From the NCBI GenBank assembly GCA_947454055.1, contig CANGIS010000015.1, positions 1 through 58,206 on the forward strand: a stretch of DNA of 58,206 bases, given 5' to 3'. How positions within the stretch are numbered: the stretch's first letter is position 1; every line of letters starts with the position of its first letter. Source of the DNA: Hyphomicrobiales bacterium. Its GTDB lineage: Bacteria > Pseudomonadota > Alphaproteobacteria > Rhizobiales > Beijerinckiaceae. Positions 4,855-13,701 of the stretch are shown here, in pieces. Under the pieces are notes generated by a model that made no database searches, had not been told where the DNA came from, and saw nothing but the letters and a program-made list of their open reading frames with translations. Position numbers and translations under genes: made by a program.

Positions 4855-5148
4855 TCAGACGTCAAAGACGCGGACGCGGCGGCGGGCACTGCGCTCAACA
4901 ACCACCGCAGGGCGCGTGCCGCCGCGCGAGATGGTAGCGACCCGCTCCGTCATTTTGCGTTGGGCCACCGATCGCATCACTTCTTTTTTCACGTCCTCGA
5001 CCGGCATGCCCATCAAGGCAGCGGCGATTTCGGCTTGGGCCGCAGGATCATCGGAAATATCACGGGCGGCCTCGATGGCTTCTTTCAGCTCGGGCGCAGC
5101 CTCTTTCACCTTGCGGTAGCCATATTTGGTTTTCCACACGCCGCTCAT
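4855..5148 (-). CDS. Small conserved-looking hypothetical protein
   Basis: A 97-residue, soluble-looking protein beginning MSGVWKTKYGYRKVKEAAP and containing DDPAAQAEIAAALMGMP followed by a basic, arginine-rich C-terminus (RSARRRVRVFDV). The ATG at 5146-5148 is chosen because GGGAG lies 8 nt upstream; an in-frame ATG at 5152-5154 is too close to that site. I do not recognise a named family, though short proteins with a similar MSGVWKT start seem familiar from alphaproteobacterial genomes. A palindrome and a possible promoter lie just upstream (5183-5204). No transmembrane segment, metal motif or signal peptide is seen. Confidence 0.65.
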   Translation of the reverse strand: MSGVWKTKYGYRKVKEAAPELKEAIEAARDISDDPAAQAEIAAALMGMPVEDVKKEVMRSVAQRKMTERVATISRGGTRPAVVVERSARRRVRVFDV

Positions 5149-5182
5149 CGCCATCGCTCCCGTTAAACTGTTATCTTTATGA

Positions 5183-5204
5183 GTGTAACACAATTATGTT
5201 GCAC
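5183..5204 (-). promoter_or_regulatory. Candidate operator/promoter upstream of the 97-aa gene
   Basis: GTGTAACA (5183-5190) and TGTTGCAC (5197-5204) form an inverted repeat (7 of 8 positions) with a 6-bp spacer. On the minus strand the same stretch offers TTGCAG, 16 bp, TACACT as a possible -35/-10 pair ending about 35 bp before the start codon at 5148. A repressor site overlapping a promoter would look like this; the regulator is unknown. Confidence 0.4.
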
Positions 5205-5240
5205 TGCAATATAATCCGGTATTGTTCGCTACCGTTTCGG

Positions 5241-6392
5241 TCATCTAGGCGAAGTTGACGGGTAGGCCAGGCCGTCAATCCAGACGCCTTTAACGGTTAA
5301 ATCATCGCCCAGATGAACGACACTTGAAGAGTAGCCGGGTGCGAGGCGGCCATAATGGTGATCAAGGCGTAGCATTCGGGCCGGTGTGAGGGTCGCCATC
5401 CGCAACGCCAGTGCGACGTCGATACCGATCTCCCGCACGAGATAGCGAACGGCGTCGAGCATGGTCAGGGTGGAGCCCGCCAGGGTGCCGTCGGGCAAGG
5501 TCAGCTTGGTGCCCATTCGGGAAGCCGTCCGGCCTTGCAGTTCAAAATGGGCGGGACCGCCGGCCGCCGGCGGCATGGCATCGGAAACCAACGCAATCCC
5601 GTCCGGCCCTTTGGCAGCAAGGGCAACGCGGATCGCCGTCGGGCTGACGTGATGGCCATCCGCGATCAGTCCCGCGATCACGCGCGGATCGGCCAGAGCC
5701 GCGCCGACCATTCCCGCCGATCGCTGGTTTAACGGGCTCATGGCATTATAAAGATGGGTGATGGCGGAGGCTCCCGCCTCGATGGCTGCAAAAGTTTCAT
5801 CATCACGCGCGTCCGAATGGCCGAGACTGACCACAATTCCGGCGGCCGTCAGATATGCAATCAGGGTGGGCGGGACGCTATTTGGCGCGAGAGTGACGAA
5901 CAAAACGCCGGCTTTGCCTTTGATCAATGCGTCGGCATCGGCCTTGGTCAACGGGCGGATAAGCTGGGGAGGATGGGCGCCTGCGCGCTTCGGATCGATA
6001 AAGGGGCCTTCGATGTGCAAGCCCAGATAACCGGGCACGAAACCCAAGGCCATTTTTCCGGCGGCCAAGGTTTCGGACAGGAGTGCGGGGGCATCGGTAA
6101 TCAAAGTCGGCAGCGCATGGGTAGTGCCAAAGCGGCGATGCGCTTCGAGAATGGTGCTGATGCCTTTTACCGTTGGCGTTTCGTTCAACAAAACGCCACC
6201 GCCGCCATTGATTTGCACGTCGATCAATCCGGGCGAAAGCAGGCCGCCGCCGAGATCGTGTTGAATTCCAGCGCGGGGCCGGTCAGCGACAGGCACGAGG
6301 CCAACGATAACGGGGCCATCGGTGATCAGTGCATGGTCGGCGATAAAGCTTTTTCCGTCAAAGATCTGCGCTCCGAAAAAGATCTGTTTCAT
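5241..6392 (-). CDS. nagA: N-acetylglucosamine-6-phosphate deacetylase
   Basis: A 383-residue amidohydrolase that removes acetate from GlcNAc-6-phosphate, feeding amino-sugar salvage. It shows GGLLSPGLIDVQINGGGGV, the metal-ligand glutamate in LHIEGPFIDPKRAGAH, the histidine of VSLGHSDA, THLYNAMSPLNQR with the second histidine, and the catalytic aspartate in ALVSDAMPPAAGG. The reading frame is open much further upstream, but the ATG at 6390-6392 begins MKQIFFGAQIFDGKSF, fits the family start, and overlaps the stop of the kinase gene by 4 nt. It is therefore translationally coupled to the GlcNAc kinase, which would supply its substrate. Confidence 0.92.
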   Translation of the reverse strand: MKQIFFGAQIFDGKSFIADHALITDGPVIVGLVPVADRPRAGIQHDLGGGLLSPGLIDVQINGGGGVLLNETPTVKGISTILEAHRRFGTTHALPTLITDAPALLSETLAAGKMALGFVPGYLGLHIEGPFIDPKRAGAHPPQLIRPLTKADADALIKGKAGVLFVTLAPNSVPPTLIAYLTAAGIVVSLGHSDARDDETFAAIEAGASAITHLYNAMSPLNQRSAGMVGAALADPRVIAGLIADGHHVSPTAIRVALAAKGPDGIALVSDAMPPAAGGPAHFELQGRTASRMGTKLTLPDGTLAGSTLTMLDAVRYLVREIGIDVALALRMATLTPARMLRLDHHYGRLAPGYSSSVVHLGDDLTVKGVWIDGLAYPSTSPR

Positions 6393-7282
6393 GGCATTTT
6401 TCCGCCTGCCATCAGGATGGCGCCATCGGCGGCGTCGCGAATGGCCGGAACAAAGAGAGGAAGGTCGGCGCTGTCGTGGTGTTCGAGCGCGAGCCAGGGG
6501 CGCAAAGGTTCGGCAAGCCCGCCGACAAGCGCTACCCGGGTGATACCCAACCGGAGAAGCGCTGCTCTCAGCGCCAAAATAGCATGGGCTGCCTGTTTGA
6601 TGATCGGCAGCGCGATGGCATCTCCCTTGGTCGCATGGTCGAAGACCATCGGGGCCAGCGCGCCATAATCGGAGGGACGGGCCGTTTTGGCCCATCGGGT
6701 GACGGCGATCGGATCAGAATCGAATTTTTTCATCATGTGAGCGGTCATTTTGGTGGACGCGATCAATCCATCGGCGGCCTGGATGGATTGCCGAAGGGCT
6801 TCCCAGCCGATGCGGGCTGCTGAACCTTCGTCGCTGATGGCAAAGCCGCGCCCGCCCAAGCCTGTCATCGTGCCGTTCATCCTTGCGAAGCCCGCTGAAC
6901 CGGTGCCGGCAATCACCAAGCCGCCATCGGCTCCGTTGTGGGCACCGAGGCAGGCGGCAGCGGCATCGCTTTCGGCTACGACATGGCCGAAGCCCTGAAA
7001 GCTGGTTCGTATGGCTTCGCCATCCGCCAGCGAGACGATGCCGGCAAGGCCTAAGCCCAGTGCAGTTGATTTTTGCTGATCAACGCCCAGTCCGGCGGAA
7101 TAGAACGCATGGTTGAGGGTGTCGACGATGGTCTCCAGAGCACCGGCCGGATCGGCATGGACATTGGCGCTGCCGCCCTCGGCAAAGGCGAGTTCCTTAC
7201 CCTCGATGGTCCGAAGTCTGACGCGGCATCGGGTGCCGCCGCCATCGACGCCTGCAACATACAGGCACGAAGGAGCCGTCAT
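6389..7282 (-). CDS. BadF/BadG-type N-acetylglucosamine kinase
   Basis: A 297-residue kinase of the BadF/BadG/BcrA/BcrD ATPase family (actin-like ASKHA fold). The phosphate-1 loop is GVDGGGTRCRVRL (about 11-23), a second glycine-rich loop is VIAGTGSAGFARMNG with GGRGFAISDEGSAARIG, and VALVGGLAEPLRPWL is the adenosine motif. Bacterial members phosphorylate GlcNAc or related amino sugars, and the 4-nt overlap with nagA downstream supports GlcNAc as substrate. Unusually, its own start also overlaps the stop of the Anbu protease gene upstream by 4 nt (ATGA, 7279-7282), tying sugar salvage to the Anbu cluster. Confidence 0.85.
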   Translation of the reverse strand: MTAPSCLYVAGVDGGGTRCRVRLRTIEGKELAFAEGGSANVHADPAGALETIVDTLNHAFYSAGLGVDQQKSTALGLGLAGIVSLADGEAIRTSFQGFGHVVAESDAAAACLGAHNGADGGLVIAGTGSAGFARMNGTMTGLGGRGFAISDEGSAARIGWEALRQSIQAADGLIASTKMTAHMMKKFDSDPIAVTRWAKTARPSDYGALAPMVFDHATKGDAIALPIIKQAAHAILALRAALLRLGITRVALVGGLAEPLRPWLALEHHDSADLPLFVPAIRDAADGAILMAGGKMP

Positions 7283-8073
7283 TTTGCTACCGGAAGATCA
7301 AGCGCCAACACCCGTTGGGTATCGTCCACACTGACCGACGGGTCACGATAATTGTCGATGTTCTTGAAAGCATCGCGAAGCGCGCCCGACCAGCCCTTCG
7401 ATAACATCTCGAAATAGGGGTCACTGGCGCCGATGCGGCGCTGATAGGTTACTTCGAGTGAATCGCGCTCATACATCAACAAATCAATCGGCATACCGAC
7501 CGAAAGATTGGAGCGCAGCGTCGAATCAAATGAAATCAGAATCACCTTGGTGCCTTCACCCATGGTCATGTCCGGACGGGCGACGCGGTCGAGTATCGGC
7601 TTGCCGTATTTATGCTCGCCGATCTGGAAGAAGGGCGTGTCCTTGGTGGCTTCGATGAAATTGCCTTCGGCATAAATCTGGAACATGCGCGGCGGCTCGC
7701 CATGAATTTGGCCGCCCAGAATAAAGGAGGCGGCAAAGACGCCATTGTTGAATTCCAGCGCCGGTCCATCGACGCGGCGAACTTCCCGCACCGCTTCCCC
7801 AATCAGACGGGCGGCCTGAAACATGGTCTGGACATTCAGAAGCGAGGCCTCGCCATTTTCGGCATTGGCGTCGATTTGCTCGTTCAAAAGCGATATAACG
7901 GCCTGCGTGACCGCCAGATTGCCGGCCGAGAGCAATACAATGACACGGTCGCCCTTGCGTTCCCAAACGTGCATTTTGCGAAACACGGCAATGTTGTCGA
8001 AGCCCGCATTGGTACGGGTATCGGACGCAAAGACGATGCCGTTATCGAGACGCAAACCTACGCAATAAGTCAT
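7279..8073 (-). CDS. Anbu, proteasome-type peptidase
   Basis: A 264-residue Ntn-hydrolase related to HslV and proteasome beta subunits. From the ATG at 8071-8073 the protein is MTYCVGLRLDNG; removal of Met exposes Thr1, and Asp17 (SDTRTNAG) and Lys32 follow at the usual proteasomal active-site distances. The start matters: an ATG two codons earlier has its GGA directly against it, whereas for this ATG the GGAA lies about 7 nt upstream. The length and the conserved neighbours (transglutaminase-like, alpha-E and ATP-grasp genes) mark it as Anbu rather than HslV. Anbu forms ring or helical assemblies in other bacteria; its natural substrate is not established. Confidence 0.9.
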   Translation of the reverse strand: MTYCVGLRLDNGIVFASDTRTNAGFDNIAVFRKMHVWERKGDRVIVLLSAGNLAVTQAVISLLNEQIDANAENGEASLLNVQTMFQAARLIGEAVREVRRVDGPALEFNNGVFAASFILGGQIHGEPPRMFQIYAEGNFIEATKDTPFFQIGEHKYGKPILDRVARPDMTMGEGTKVILISFDSTLRSNLSVGMPIDLLMYERDSLEVTYQRRIGASDPYFEMLSKGWSGALRDAFKNIDNYRDPSVSVDDTQRVLALDLPVAK

Positions 8074-8106
8074 GTTCATTTCCGCTTTGTGAGTGCGGCT
8101 ATCTTC

Positions 8107-8910
8107 TTACTGTTGACTGGCGCCGACGACAACCTCCACTGTCATCGCCTCGCCCTCCGCCCCCCGCATGGTGCCCTTGATCGGGGCGGCGCCGGCGGCG
8201 TCATAGCCGATGGCAAGGCGGACATAATATTCGGTGGGCGAGACATTATTGGCCGCATCAAAACCGACCCAGCCGATTTCCTCGACAAAGGCTTCCGCCC
8301 AAGCGTGGTGCGCGACGGCCGTGATGTCGTCCTCCATCAGCAGATAGCCTGTCACATAGCGGGCCGGAATCCCAAGGGTGCGCGCCGCGCCGATAAAGAT
8401 ATGCGCGTGATCCTGACACACACCGCGTTTGGTTTTGAAAGCGTCAATGGCGGTCGTTAGCGCATGGGTTGCGTTGGTATCATAAGCGACTGTTCCGTTG
8501 ATGGCGTTGAGCAGGGCGTGCAACGTGTCGAGGCGCCCCGGGCGGTGGCTGGCCTGTGCCAAACTCTCAATGCCGGGCGAGGTCGCGGTGAGGGCGGTTG
8601 GTCGGAGAAAGACGCCGGGCGGCACAGCCTCGCCGGTAAAGCCCACGACGCCGGCCGTATCCATCGTCTCGATCACGCCATGGGCCATAATTTCGAGGCT
8701 ATCGCTTGTACCCGGCGGCGTGACGAGATCCACATGGTTGCCAAACGCATCGACGTAATGGGCGGCGCGTTCAATACCTGTAATGTCGATCGTCCAGTCG
8801 ATGACGCGCTGGCTTTTGCCGTTGGGAGGCCTCAGCCGCAGCGATTGCACCGCATGGTTGAACGCGCGGGAATAGCGGTAGGCAGTGCGGTGGCGGATGG
8901 CAATCAGCAT
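8107..8910 (-). CDS. Transglutaminase-like cysteine protease of the Anbu cluster
   Basis: A 267-residue protein with an N-terminal beta-rich domain (begins MLIAIRHRTAYRYSRA) and a transglutaminase-fold core. The triad is visible: Cys165 in KRGVCQDHAH, His202 in VAHHAWAEAF and Asp218 in WVGFDAANN. Members of this COG1305 group travel with Anbu, alpha-E and circularly permuted ATP-grasp genes, and have been proposed to hydrolyse or form isopeptide bonds on a peptide tag. There is no signal peptide, so it should act in the cytoplasm. It ends 33 bp before the Anbu start and begins 12 bp after the alpha-E stop. Confidence 0.88.
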   Translation of the reverse strand: MLIAIRHRTAYRYSRAFNHAVQSLRLRPPNGKSQRVIDWTIDITGIERAAHYVDAFGNHVDLVTPPGTSDSLEIMAHGVIETMDTAGVVGFTGEAVPPGVFLRPTALTATSPGIESLAQASHRPGRLDTLHALLNAINGTVAYDTNATHALTTAIDAFKTKRGVCQDHAHIFIGAARTLGIPARYVTGYLLMEDDITAVAHHAWAEAFVEEIGWVGFDAANNVSPTEYYVRLAIGYDAAGAAPIKGTMRGAEGEAMTVEVVVGASQQ

Positions 8911-8922
8911 GTCGAAGTCCGC

Positions 8923-9870
8923 TTATGAGAGGAAGTGATAATCATCCGCGATATGAGCGGAAACCGTATTGTTGCGCTTGAGAAACTCGATCAGGAATTC
9001 ATGCAATCCGGACTGGAAAATGGCATCCATGTGGCCATTTTTGAGATCCTGCAAAATGCCTCTTGCCTCGAGCAGGCTCGGCATGGGTTTGCCGATCATG
9101 TCGGAAAGCCCCTCCAGCGAACGCTCGATCCAGCCATAGCAAAAGCAGAAGGAGCGTGGCATTTCCGGCCGGAGAATGAGGAATTCGGCCACATTCCATG
9201 GTCGATAGCGGTCTTTATAAACGTGTCGATACGAGCGGTGGGCCGATACCGAACGTAAAATCGTTTCCCACTGGAAGGCGTCAATGTCGCTGCCGACCGT
9301 TTCATTGGTCGGCAGCAGCACGTAGTATTTTACGTCCAAAATTCGGGCGGTATTATCGGCGCGTTCGATAAAGGCGCCGAGCTGGCTGAAATGAAAGCCC
9401 TCGTCGCGCAGCAAGGTGCCGAGCATCGAGCCGCGGAAAAGTGCCGAGCGCTGGCGAACCCAGTCGAGAAATTCCGGCAGCTTGCCGGAGCCGAGATCAG
9501 CCGGTTTGACGGAGGCAAAATCAATATAGGTGGAGTTCAACGCTTCCCACATTTCGCGCGTGAGGGCTGTCCGAACGGCGCGGGCATTGTTGCGTGCGGT
9601 CTCGAGGCAGGAACGGACCGAAGACGGATTATCCCTGTCAAACAACAAGAAATGCTTCACCTTTTCGGGTTTGATCTCGGTGTGGCGGGCGAGATAATCC
9701 TCGTAACAGCCTGCCGCGATCAAGGTCGATTTCCAGTCTTCTCGGTGACCAATGCCGATGTCGGGTGTCAGCGATATGCGATAGCCGACCTCGGCCAGGC
9801 GGGCGATGTTCTCCGCGCGTTCGATATAACGCGACATCCAGAAGAGGCTTGCGGCGGTGCGTCCGAGCAT
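8923..9870 (-). CDS. Alpha-E domain protein (COG2307)
   Basis: A 315-residue, mostly alpha-helical protein starting MLGRTAASLFWMSRYIERAENIARL, the characteristic alpha-E opening. The reading frame is open upstream to 10236, but that part is antisense-like shadow of the ATP-grasp gene; the ATG at 9868-9870 lies 2 nt after the ATP-grasp stop. Alpha-E proteins have no known enzymatic residues and are thought to be a scaffold or acceptor for products of the neighbouring ATP-grasp ligase. Arginine and aspartate pairs such as FIERADNTARILDVKY recur, suggesting an internal helical repeat (compare YIERAENIARL). Confidence 0.88.
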   Translation of the reverse strand: MLGRTAASLFWMSRYIERAENIARLAEVGYRISLTPDIGIGHREDWKSTLIAAGCYEDYLARHTEIKPEKVKHFLLFDRDNPSSVRSCLETARNNARAVRTALTREMWEALNSTYIDFASVKPADLGSGKLPEFLDWVRQRSALFRGSMLGTLLRDEGFHFSQLGAFIERADNTARILDVKYYVLLPTNETVGSDIDAFQWETILRSVSAHRSYRHVYKDRYRPWNVAEFLILRPEMPRSFCFCYGWIERSLEGLSDMIGKPMPSLLEARGILQDLKNGHMDAIFQSGLHEFLIEFLKRNNTVSAHIADDYHFLS

Positions 9871-9872
9871 CG

Positions 9873-11336
9873 TTAGTCCTCCAAGACCCAGGTATCTTTG
9901 GTGCCGCCACCTTGGCTTGAATTGACCACCAGCGAGCCTTTTTGCAGGGCAACACGGGTGAGGCCGCCGGGCGTAATGCGGATTTTGTCGCCAACGAGCA
10001 CGAACGGCCGAAGATCGACATGGCGGGGTGCCGAACCGGCGCCGACATTGGAAGGGCAGGTCGAGAGCGAAAGCGTCGGCTGGGCAATGTAATTGGACGG
10101 GTTCGCCTTGATTTTCTGCTCGAACGCCTTGAGCTGCGCCTTGGTCGAGTGCGGCCCGATCAGCATGCCATAGCCGCCCGAGCCGTGGACTTCCTTGACG
10201 ACGAGCTCCCCGAGATGGCCGAGCACATAGCCACATTCGTCGGGGATGGAGCAGCGATAGGTCGGCACATTGGAAAGAATGGGCTTTTCGCCCGTATAAA
10301 ACTCGATGATATCGGGAACATAAGCGTAAACGGCTTTGTCATCCGCAATACCGGTGCCCGGCGCGTTGACGATGGTAACCCCGCCGGCGCGATAGAGATC
10401 GAACAATCCGGGCACGCCCAGCGTCGAATCCGGCTGGAAGGCGAGAGGATCGAGATAATTGTCGTCGACGCGACGATAAAGAACGTCGATGCGTTCTTTG
10501 CCGGTAACGGTTCGCATATAGAGCGCACCATCCTCAATGAAGAGATCCGAGCCCTGCACGAGTTCGACGCCCATCTGGTCGGCCAGAAACGAATGCTCGA
10601 AATAGGCCGAATTGAAAATCCCCGGCGTAAGGACGGCCAGTGTCGGGTCGCTTTTGCAGGCGGGCGGGGCCACGCTTTCCAGCGTCTGGCGCAGCATTTC
10701 CGGATAACGCTCGACCGGGGCAACGCGGTGGGCGGCGAATAGTTCGGGAAAGAGATGCATCATCGCTTCCCGATCTTCCAGCATATAGGACACGCCCGAA
10801 GGCGTTCTGAGATTGTCCTCCAGCACGAAAAACGCATTCTCGCCGGTGCGCACGATGTCGGTGCCGACAATGTGGGAATACACCTTGCCGGGCGGGTCAA
10901 AGCCCATCATTTGCGGCAAAAACGCTTCATTGCCGATGATCAGATCGGCAGGAACACGACCAGCGCGGATGATTTCCTGCCGGTGGTAGATGTCATACAG
11001 AAATAAATTGAGCGCCCGGACGCGTTGCTCGATGCCGCGTTCCAGAAAACGCCATTCTTGCGCTGCGATGACGCGCGGGATCAGATCGAACGGGATCAAC
11101 CGTTCATTGGAGGCGGTATCGCCATAGACGGCGAATGTGATGCCCAGCCGACGGAAGATGGCGTCGGCTTCTTCTTGCTTTCTGGCCATCACGCCGCGGG
11201 TTTGCTGGGCCATCCAATCGGCGATTTTTTGATAGGCGGGTCGAACAGAACCATCGGCGGACCGCATCTCGTCAAAAAACGCCGGCGCCGGGGATTTGCT
11301 GCCTGTTTTTGCGGCACCTGCTTGCGTCTTCATCAT
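9873..11336 (-). CDS. Circularly permuted ATP-grasp type 2 protein (COG2308)
   Basis: A 487-residue circularly permuted ATP-grasp enzyme. Recognisable parts are LIPFDLIPRVIAAQEW, LRTPSGVSYMLEDREAM (about 150-167), YRRVDDNYLDPLAF, and the ATP-binding stretch VVKEVHGSGGYGMLIGPHS near 380-400. ATP-grasp enzymes ligate a carboxylate to an amine; this subgroup is proposed to make short peptides or amide tags together with alpha-E and transglutaminase-like partners. The ATG at 11334-11336 is chosen because GGGAA lies 8 nt upstream. It is the first gene of the tightly packed run, 120 bp after the serine hydrolase gene. Confidence 0.88.
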   Translation of the reverse strand: MMKTQAGAAKTGSKSPAPAFFDEMRSADGSVRPAYQKIADWMAQQTRGVMARKQEEADAIFRRLGITFAVYGDTASNERLIPFDLIPRVIAAQEWRFLERGIEQRVRALNLFLYDIYHRQEIIRAGRVPADLIIGNEAFLPQMMGFDPPGKVYSHIVGTDIVRTGENAFFVLEDNLRTPSGVSYMLEDREAMMHLFPELFAAHRVAPVERYPEMLRQTLESVAPPACKSDPTLAVLTPGIFNSAYFEHSFLADQMGVELVQGSDLFIEDGALYMRTVTGKERIDVLYRRVDDNYLDPLAFQPDSTLGVPGLFDLYRAGGVTIVNAPGTGIADDKAVYAYVPDIIEFYTGEKPILSNVPTYRCSIPDECGYVLGHLGELVVKEVHGSGGYGMLIGPHSTKAQLKAFEQKIKANPSNYIAQPTLSLSTCPSNVGAGSAPRHVDLRPFVLVGDKIRITPGGLTRVALQKGSLVVNSSQGGGTKDTWVLED

Positions 11337-11456
11337 CTTATCTATTCCCACGGCAAATAATCGCCACTCTGCCATGTCAGGAGCAAAAGCCAAGCCAGAA
11401 GATCGAAGGATGGCCCGACAATGTTCATTGGCGATCCATGGTCCACCATAGGAGGG

Positions 11457-12638
11457 TCAAAAATTGGCCGCCACATGGTCGATGGCGCTGATCGCGGTTT
11501 TCATTCTCGCGGGATCGGTGAAATCGGGCCAGCTCGACAGTTTGACCGCCACGAAATTCTTTTCCAGATCGATATAGATCAATTGGCCAAAGACACCGCG
11601 GCACAAAAGGACCTGACCTTTCGCCTGTTTAAGCCAGAACTGGTTGCGGTAGGCGCCCATGGGTAGAATATCGGTATAGGGCTGATGAAAGAGGGTTGCG
11701 TCGCCTGTTCGCGTCTCTTCTATCCAATTTTCCGATATTAGCCGTTTTCCGCTGGCCATTCCATGATTGGCCCAGAGCAGCCCGAAGCGCGCGAAATCCC
11801 TCAGGCACGCATTGAAGCCGCCGTCGCCCAGCGCAAAGCCCGTCCGGTCTATCGTAAAAGAAGCAATTGCCTCGGCCCCGATGGGTTGCCAGATTTCATC
11901 CGATATGATGTCGGCCAGCCGCTTTCCCGTCACCTTTTCCATCACCAGCGTGATGATGTCGGTCTCAATGGAGCGATACTCGAACTTCTCGCCATGCGAC
12001 CGAACGAGGGTTTTTAACGCAAGGATCAATTCGAGCATGGAAGCGGGCCATTGGCCGGGCAGGGTTGGCTGTTTCCATCCGCTGGCCACATCGATCCGGC
12101 CGGCGTCCGAATAGGGATCGATATAATTTTCGTCGAACCGCACGCCGCTGGTCATATCAAGCACATGGCGAAGCGTGGCATGGCGAAAAGCGGTGTCGGC
12201 TAACTCGGGAACAACATCCATCAGCGAGCGTTGCGGGTCGATCAGTCCACGGGAAACTAGAATACCGCACGCCGTGCCTGTGACCGATTTTGAAACCGAT
12301 TGGGCGAGGTGCAGGGTGGCCTGGTCCATGCCGTTGAAATAACGCTCATAGACAATCTCGTTTTTTGACAAAACGATAAAGCCATCCGTGAAACTGGTAT
12401 CGAGCCACTCGCCGACAGAGGTCGGTTTACCGGCATCGCGGAAAGCGATTGTTTCAATCTTTTGCAAGGATGTTGGCAGGGGAGAGATGCGATCGGGGTT
12501 ATTTCTTACCGGCGTGGTGGGTAAAATTTCACCGATATGTTGAAAGGTCCAGCGATTCCATGGGGCGCGATCCCACGCATCGGCCGGAAAATCCGGACGT
12601 TGGCTACCCGATATGACGCTTTCTGTTGGCTGGGTCAT
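11457..12638 (-). CDS. NylB-like serine hydrolase (beta-lactamase/DD-peptidase fold)
   Basis: A 393-residue serine hydrolase of the class C beta-lactamase/DD-peptidase fold. The catalytic SxxK is SVSK (Ser114, Lys117), the second conserved position is the tyrosine in FEYRSIETD (Tyr221), and NYIDPYSD supplies a tyrosine (Tyr172) resembling the one that helps amide cleavage in 6-aminohexanoate-dimer hydrolase (NylB). The overall layout, including GDGGFNACLRDFARFG, fits the NylB branch. No signal peptide is visible, so it is probably cytoplasmic. It stands directly upstream of, and in the same direction as, the ATP-grasp/Anbu genes, which suggests a role on amide-linked oligomers, but this link is inference. 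Confidence 0.82.
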   Translation of the reverse strand: MTQPTESVISGSQRPDFPADAWDRAPWNRWTFQHIGEILPTTPVRNNPDRISPLPTSLQKIETIAFRDAGKPTSVGEWLDTSFTDGFIVLSKNEIVYERYFNGMDQATLHLAQSVSKSVTGTACGILVSRGLIDPQRSLMDVVPELADTAFRHATLRHVLDMTSGVRFDENYIDPYSDAGRIDVASGWKQPTLPGQWPASMLELILALKTLVRSHGEKFEYRSIETDIITLVMEKVTGKRLADIISDEIWQPIGAEAIASFTIDRTGFALGDGGFNACLRDFARFGLLWANHGMASGKRLISENWIEETRTGDATLFHQPYTDILPMGAYRNQFWLKQAKGQVLLCRGVFGQLIYIDLEKNFVAVKLSSWPDFTDPARMKTAISAIDHVAANF

Positions 12639-12819: not shown

Positions 12820-13701
12820 ATGGCCAGTCGAAACACCTCCCGCCGGGTCAGTATTGGCACGCGGCAATTTACCATACTGGGAGGGCGCCAAGCGACGTTC
12901 ATTGATCTTTATCACGACAGTCTGGCAATTTCCTGGCCTCGATTTTTCGTCGTGGTGGCGGGTGTTTTTGCCCTCACCAACATTGTTTTCGCGCTGCTAT
13001 ACTGGGCGGGCGGCGATGTGATCGCCAATACGCAGGGTGGCAATCTGGCGATGCTGTTTTTCTTCAGTGTCGAGGCGCTGTCGACCGTCGGCTTCGGCGA
13101 TATGCATCCGATGAATTATTATGGACATACGATTGCCAGCATCGAGAATTTTTTCGGCCTGTTGTTTGTAGCCGTTACAACGGGTGTGATGTTCACCCGC
13201 TTCGCGCGGGCGCGGGCCCGTTTTATGTTTGCCAAACATCCGGTTGTTTCGATGTTTAATGGCAAGCCGACCCTGATGATCCGCATCGCCAATGAGCGCC
13301 ACAACACGGTAAGCGACGCTTCGGCGCGGCTGTGGGTCTTGAAGGATGGCAAATCGGCAGAAGGTCAGAGCTTTCGCCGCTTTGTTGAATTGAAACTGGA
13401 GCGGGTAGAAAATCCTGTCTTCGTGCTGTCATGGACCCTGTTTCATGTCGTGGACGACACCTCGCCACTCTACCATGTGCGCGACGCGAAAGAGCCCAAT
13501 GTGTCGACCCTGATCGTGTCGATTTCAGGCTATGACGAGAATATGGCGCAAGAAGTGAGGGCACGGCACTGGTACAATGTGCACGATATTCGATGGGATC
13601 ATCGCTATGCCGACATTTTGGAGTCGGGTCCGGACGGGGATACACAATTGAATTATGATCACTTCCATGAATCACATCCTGACTTGACCGCAACACGCTG
13701 A
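12820..13701 (+). CDS. Inward-rectifier-type potassium channel (KirBac-like)
   Basis: A 293-residue ion channel. It has a short cytoplasmic N-terminus, a slide helix region (FIDLYHDSLAISWPRFF), membrane helix 1 (about 42-62), a pore loop with selectivity filter TVGFGD (89-94), membrane helix 2 (about 105-126) and a C-terminal immunoglobulin-like Kir domain (RIANERHNTVSDASARLW onward). This layout is that of prokaryotic KirBac channels, which conduct K+ across the inner membrane. The filter is GFG rather than GYG, as in several Kir proteins. It starts 181 bp from the divergent serine hydrolase gene and is followed 11 bp later by the aldehyde dehydrogenase gene. Confidence 0.9.
   Translation: MASRNTSRRVSIGTRQFTILGGRQATFIDLYHDSLAISWPRFFVVVAGVFALTNIVFALLYWAGGDVIANTQGGNLAMLFFFSVEALSTVGFGDMHPMNYYGHTIASIENFFGLLFVAVTTGVMFTRFARARARFMFAKHPVVSMFNGKPTLMIRIANERHNTVSDASARLWVLKDGKSAEGQSFRRFVELKLERVENPVFVLSWTLFHVVDDTSPLYHVRDAKEPNVSTLIVSISGYDENMAQEVRARHWYNVHDIRWDHRYADILESGPDGDTQLNYDHFHESHPDLTATR

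Follow-up and report, generated by a model that had tools for sequence, protein, structure and literature searches.

A four-gene Anbu operon likely fused at its 3′ end to a nagK-nagA salvage pair in one Beijerinckiaceae-like genus

The bacterial Anbu operon has been described as four genes encoding an ATP-grasp ligase, an Alpha-E protein, a transglutaminase-like protein and Anbu, and a role in peptide tagging or synthesis has been proposed for it (PMC5666114, PMC6376114; here and below, citations refer to the available portions of each paper). Expression of Anbu in Pseudomonas putida is reported to rise when nitrogen is limiting (PMC5666114, PMC6376114). In the portion of PMC6376114 available, purified Anbu gave no activity above background on the 20S-type substrates tried, and some Ntn hydrolases are discussed as cleaving amino-sugar amides. 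A second described system is the recycling of peptidoglycan amino sugars. In Caulobacter, NagZ releases N-acetylglucosamine (GlcNAc), on which NagK acts as kinase and then NagA as deacetylase; anhydro-N-acetylmuramic acid (anhydroMurNAc) follows an AnmK and MurU route, and the available portion of PMC13046382 tabulates no MurQ homologue. Agrobacterium likewise uses NagZ in cell-wall recycling (PMC9790009). Here we describe a locus in which genes of both systems follow one another on a single strand. It lies in a 58,206-nucleotide (nt) stretch of contig CANGIS010000015.1 (assembly GCA_947454055.1, a Hyphomicrobiales bacterium placed in the Beijerinckiaceae), hereafter the window, which is part of a 2.67-Mb genome in 64 contigs. 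It is likely that the known Anbu operon and a nagK-nagA salvage pair have become fused at the 3′ end of the operon in one Beijerinckiaceae-like genus, and that they share a transcript and not a substrate.

All seven minus-strand genes of the original prediction, with their order and names, were borne out by the open reading frames (ORFs) and by Pfam, NCBIfam and PDB searches. The operon core comprises a circularly permuted ATP-grasp ligase (9873–11336; PF14403, CP_ATPgrasp_2, 549 bits; PDB 3n6x, E 6e-197), an Alpha-E protein (8923–9870; PF04168, 323 bits), a transglutaminase-like protein (8107–8910; PF08379, Bact_transglu_N, and PF01841, Transglut_core) and Anbu (7279–8073; PDB 5nyj, E 4e-99). 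Their conserved order on a single strand identifies an Anbu operon, and this order is the published one. The catalytic Thr1, Asp17 and Lys32(33) are present in the window's Anbu, as read by eye from an alignment using the residue list of PMC6376114. Two genes follow on the same strand, nagK (6389–7282), for a BadF-type amino-sugar kinase, and nagA (5241–6392), for GlcNAc-6-phosphate deacetylase. The predicted ATGA stop/start overlaps between Anbu and nagK (7279–7282) and between nagK and nagA (6389–6392) are exact. These two salvage genes, joined behind Anbu by ATGA overlaps, set the operon of this genus apart from the described one; on the chemistry of the core itself the window adds nothing to published knowledge.

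Two start sites required a choice. The ATP-grasp ORF is open up to a TTG at 11393, and the longest Anbu ORF starts at 8079; these starts would make the flanking gaps 63 and 27 nt. ATP-grasp homologues in the genus align from residue ~12–21 of the long ORF, mostly 17–21, and the match from residue 12, in genome G140, includes two stops. In an 11-protein Anbu alignment the intact starts read M/V-TYC, two proteins having extra residues ahead. Because the genus homologues align there, ATG 11336 is preferred for the ATP-grasp gene and the second ATG, at 8073, for Anbu. Given these starts, the predicted gaps of 120, 2, 12 and 33 nt are right.

Of the name given to the kinase in the original prediction, GlcNAc kinase, the family stands and the precise function is less certain. 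The protein passes the cut-off of PF01869 (BcrAD/BadFG ATPase-kinase family; 117.7 versus 31.5 bits) and fails that of the GlcNAc kinase equivalog NF046058 (NagK_SO3507; 195.5 versus 370 bits), so that GlcNAc kinase is a family-level designation only. Its best solved relative is 1zc6, a probable GlcNAc kinase (E 6e-33), and it is probably a BadF-family kinase acting like NagK. NagA passes TIGR00221 (271.3 versus 225.65 bits; PDB 3egj, E 1e-69) and fails the stricter PRK11170 model (277 versus 483). It is the single NagA-like member among the eight amidohydrolase loci of the genome that were compared, a set that leaves out two weaker matches. Alignments across the genus reveal conserved blocks in both NagK and NagA, which we take to belong to the active sites.

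The predicted linkage of Anbu, kinase and nagA recurs in related genomes, so that the total lack of recurrence by which the original prediction would have been refuted did not occur. The most similar Anbu records come from metagenome assemblies named Beijerinckiaceae, Rhizobiales, Hyphomicrobiales or Alphaproteobacteria, many of which may, to judge from their isolate names, originate from lakes. In a genus sample of 12 genomes the kinase is found in all 12 and Anbu in 11, and all 11 Anbu-bearing genomes retain the order Anbu-nagK-nagA with both junctions overlapping by exactly 4 nt (the NagA of G150 is cut by a contig end). Across the genus, identity to the window's proteins falls to ~48–50% for NagK and is still 86–92% for Anbu. 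Pairwise omega in five genome pairs is 0.09–0.19 for nagK, 0.08–0.13 for nagA and 0.01–0.09 for the four core genes, rough values given that dS exceeds 1 in several pairs; all six genes are thus under purifying selection. Since the linkage and both overlaps recur throughout the genus although NagK has diverged to ~50%, the Anbu operon and nagK-nagA are likely to be cotranscribed, as the original prediction had suggested. The two modules occur apart in other bacteria, and the layout is therefore probably a matter of shared transcription and not of a shared pathway.

Adjacency within the genus is weak evidence of shared function, because the whole region is colinear with that of G140, whose NagK is among the most divergent in the genus. 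Of the window genes at 395–26,084 (~25 kb), those also found in G140 stand there in the same order and orientation, and most are unrelated genes; they include murI, pdxA, a DMT transporter, terC, an aldehyde dehydrogenase, glpX and homoserine dehydrogenase (names of unscanned genes were assigned by reading). The window ORFs picked over the Alpha-E, transglutaminase and Anbu genes in this comparison were opposite-strand shadows, and the real order there was taken from a separate locus comparison. General colinearity accounts for much of the overlap retention in the genus.

Outside the genus the linkage was not recovered. No nagK or nagA was found near Anbu in 106 outside-genus loci (97 non-duplicate; tblastn, E 1e-6), some of whose contigs end soon after Anbu. 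A family sample of 149 genomes contains Anbu in 94, a kinase homologue in 48 and both in 34. In the 29 outside-genus family genomes with both, the two genes are never adjacent and never on one contig closer than ~160 kb. In a class sample of 385 genomes, with Anbu in 111, the kinase in 44 and both in 25, the window's genome is the sole adjacent case, the other 24 genomes with both having none. The two samples overlap in part, G001 being one of the genomes counted in both, and the class-sample Anbu matches are partly weak (30–38% identity over ~200 residues); these may represent another Anbu subtype. A NagK match is absent from 60 of the 94 Anbu genomes of the family sample, and none was obtained in eight genomes of genera g30 and g5, which carry the most similar outside-genus Anbu (~76–83%). 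Across 14 loci of g30 and g5, only the core genes are common with the window within the available stretches. Among the literature matches listed, none described Anbu together with nagK or nagA.

The two modules also separate in the other direction. G068, a 98% complete member of the genus, keeps nagK and nagA and gave no match to Anbu or the ATP-grasp protein anywhere in its genome; the Alpha-E and transglutaminase genes, looked for at this locus only, are absent there. Its contig is unbroken through the locus and reads eamA, terC, small ORF, nagA, nagK, argC (the last named by reading), and the window genes between nagK and argC, namely the core, an inward-rectifier-like channel and the aldehyde dehydrogenase, are missing. 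The G068 nagK and nagA genes are separated by 76 nt. Either G068 has lost the core or it branched before the fusion, and the trees disagree on this point: the NagK tree places it outside the other 11 genus members (90/92), whereas in the NagA tree it groups with six of these (93/91). Because G068 has nagK-nagA without Anbu, and g30 and g5 have Anbu without NagK, the modules come apart both ways.

What follows Anbu varies between lineages. From 107 loci, 11 were set aside as duplicates, as two pieces of a single genome (L070 and L154) or as belonging to the genus (L097); among the 96 that remained, three end too soon past Anbu. As mechanical next-gene picks include shadow ORFs, only ten scanned followers were used. 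Counting from longest-ORF starts, Anbu and a Sua5-type gene overlap by an ATGA in L055, and Anbu overlaps the gene of an HPP-family membrane protein in L051 and precedes a type II dehydroquinase gene by 12 nt in L124. Spacing behind Anbu can thus be just as tight where the next gene is unrelated. L051 carries the four-gene core upstream; in L055 the available stretch contains none of the other core genes. The remaining scanned followers are two glycosyltransferases, an FGGY carbohydrate kinase, a GGDEF-EAL protein, an outer-membrane efflux protein, a fructose bisphosphatase and a UDP-glucose/GDP-mannose dehydrogenase, and several stand 50–230 nt from Anbu. None of the ten identified followers in other lineages is an amino-sugar gene. 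The original prediction had taken the coupling to amino-sugar salvage as a clue to the Anbu substrate, perhaps a muropeptide or a tagged amino sugar. The missing adjacency outside the genus in both samples, the eight g30 and g5 genomes lacking a NagK match, the retention of nagK-nagA in G068 and these followers all argue against that part of it.

The core itself is variably arranged. At L047, L052, L054, L055 and L056, Anbu stands without the other three core genes within ~5 kb per side. At L102 and L108, the ATP-grasp, Alpha-E and transglutaminase genes are divergent from Anbu, and a glycosyltransferase gene follows Anbu in both. The transglutaminase-Anbu spacer is ~365 nt long in the G029/G153 pair (L086, 8637–9000, with L084, 8634–9000), compared with 37 nt in G120 and G151, and in G029 and G153 it includes an ORF of 68 codons with a hydrophobic stretch at the C terminus.

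A place for the kinase and NagA in cell-wall turnover, the other half of that prediction, is plausible. The window's genome encodes NagZ (NF003740, 223 versus a cut-off of 207 bits), AnmK (NF007141, 468 versus 352 bits) and GlmS (754 versus 418). In the genus sample, a GH3 domain is present in 11 of the 12 genomes (not G097) and AnmK (PF03702) in all 12, and MurQ (TIGR00274) exceeds its cut-off in none. With NagZ and AnmK in the genome, NagK and NagA would have their standard job in the GlcNAc branch of peptidoglycan recycling, a Caulobacter-type assignment that would need no new chemistry. The presence of NagZ, AnmK, NagK and NagA and the lack of a MurQ over the cut-off correspond to what is tabulated for Caulobacter (PMC13046382); the difference lies in the position of nagK-nagA behind Anbu. 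The pair also belongs to the same families as NagK and NagA of proteobacterial nag operons, but has no deaminase, regulator or transporter gene attached. In G027, from another genus of the family, nagK, a GntR-UTRA regulator gene, a gene for a NagB-II-like SIS protein (323 bits, short of its 430-bit cut-off) and nagA stand together in that order, with divergent sugar ABC transporter genes.

On the fused-operon reading, transcription would start upstream of the ATP-grasp gene and continue as a single mRNA through nagA, and the overlaps would let ribosomes ending Anbu begin nagK and then nagA. From what the protein families and the known pathway suggest, NagZ would free GlcNAc from GlcNAc-anhydroMurNAc fragments, NagK would phosphorylate it, and NagA would deacetylate the resulting GlcNAc-6-phosphate to glucosamine 6-phosphate, which would enter UDP-GlcNAc synthesis at the GlmS product. 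The Anbu core would perform its own, separate amide chemistry. Several observations pull the other way. Both overlaps are strictly retained while NagK fell to ~50% identity, which is more than a chance pair needs. Anbu and NagK co-occur in 25 genomes of the class sample against 12.7 expected (Fisher p 6e-5, with genome size and phylogeny uncontrolled); the family sample gives no association (34 observed, 30.3 expected, p 0.21). The substrate of the window's NagK is not certain from its sequence matches. Finally, G097 has nagK-nagA, no GH3 match and two MurQ-like matches at 203–207 bits, below the cut-off of 302, so the pathway may differ there.

The retained overlaps (11 of 11) would also suit co-regulation without shared chemistry, in which Anbu and NagK-NagA are wanted in the same state, such as nitrogen starvation or slow growth, and selection keeps them on one transcript. 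Amino-sugar salvage would fit the nitrogen-limitation response of Anbu in P. putida (PMC5666114, PMC6376114), and the class-wide co-occurrence mildly favors such a link. However, G068 maintains the pair without Anbu or ATP-grasp, the family sample has no excess, no adjacency was found outside the genus in the sampled genomes, and the entire region is colinear with G140; we regard this explanation as unlikely. That nagK-nagA is driven by its own promoter inside the Anbu gene, the overlap being accidental, appears quite improbable. The G068 pair makes a promoter of its own possible, and a single promoter-like match occurs close to where Anbu begins, but two ATGA overlaps leave no intergenic space. 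As promoter-like matches number five, equal to the shuffle mean of 5.0, the promoter scan carries no signal either way; terminator-like matches number 13, against 11.2 in shuffles.

Functional coupling, in which the Anbu core would ligate or cleave an amide on an amino sugar or muropeptide and the released sugar would pass to NagK-NagA for processing, would be consistent with the same 11 overlaps, with the amino-sugar amide cleavage discussed for some Ntn hydrolases (PMC6376114), with the presence of NagZ and AnmK and with the class-wide excess. It is very doubtful, given the 60 of 94 family Anbu genomes without a NagK match, among them the eight with the most similar outside-genus Anbu, the NagK-NagA of G068 without Anbu, and an optional NylB-like gene. 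It is tempting to speculate that the ATP-grasp and transglutaminase proteins form an amide on an amino sugar derived from the cell wall, that Anbu removes this amide and that NagK-NagA take the freed sugar, which would make Anbu a muropeptide or amino-sugar amidase and not a protease, though we consider this specific scheme most improbable.

The NylB-like serine hydrolase gene (11457–12638, minus strand; beta-lactamase family, PF00144; PDB 2zm0, 6-aminohexanoate-dimer hydrolase, E 1e-62) is the seventh gene of the original prediction, where it figured as a further amide-cleaving partner. It proved to be an optional neighbor, present in three and absent from five of the eight genomes of the genus in which the junction can be read (in G097, G120 and G154 the contig stops short of the gene, and G068 has no match), and it is missing from the colinear region of G140. 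A partner role in the pathway was rejected on these counts. The nylon-hydrolase name should not be transferred to this protein, whose substrate cannot be read from its sequence. Elsewhere in the window's own genome, another gene of a beta-lactamase-family serine hydrolase (L228, 4372–5382) overlaps the end of anmK. Upstream, and divergent from the Anbu operon, window positions 12820–13701 encode an inward-rectifier K+ channel-like protein (IRK_C and Ion_trans_2), which is found in the eight genus genomes with sequence there and is absent at the G068 locus.

Downstream of nagA, a palindrome, TTGCACTGCAA, lies at 5199–5209 before the next gene, with one match in the window and none in 100 shuffles. 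The form TTGCA(C/G)TGCAA follows nagA in eight of the 12 genus genomes examined, the contig of G150 ending before the site. We take it to resemble a PhaR-like regulator box. It is perhaps a putative regulatory site of the next transcript, and therefore marks a possible end of the Anbu-nagA operon. The small gene at 4855–5154, between nagA and terC, has no Pfam or NCBIfam match; it was seen in 10 of the 12 genus genomes, including G068, the contigs of G149 and G150 ending earlier. A provisional label for this ORF, DUF1476, was rejected, as neither database supports it.

A genome in which Anbu is hard-wired to the salvage of amino sugars would offer a helpful clue to the substrate of the Anbu operon. 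Because the fusion is confined to one genus in the samples, the modules stand apart elsewhere and the gene following Anbu varies, the clue is weak, and the survey cautions against assigning Anbu a role in the cell wall. The genus instead offers a natural test case for cotranscription, with 11 fused genomes and one that has nagK-nagA without Anbu.

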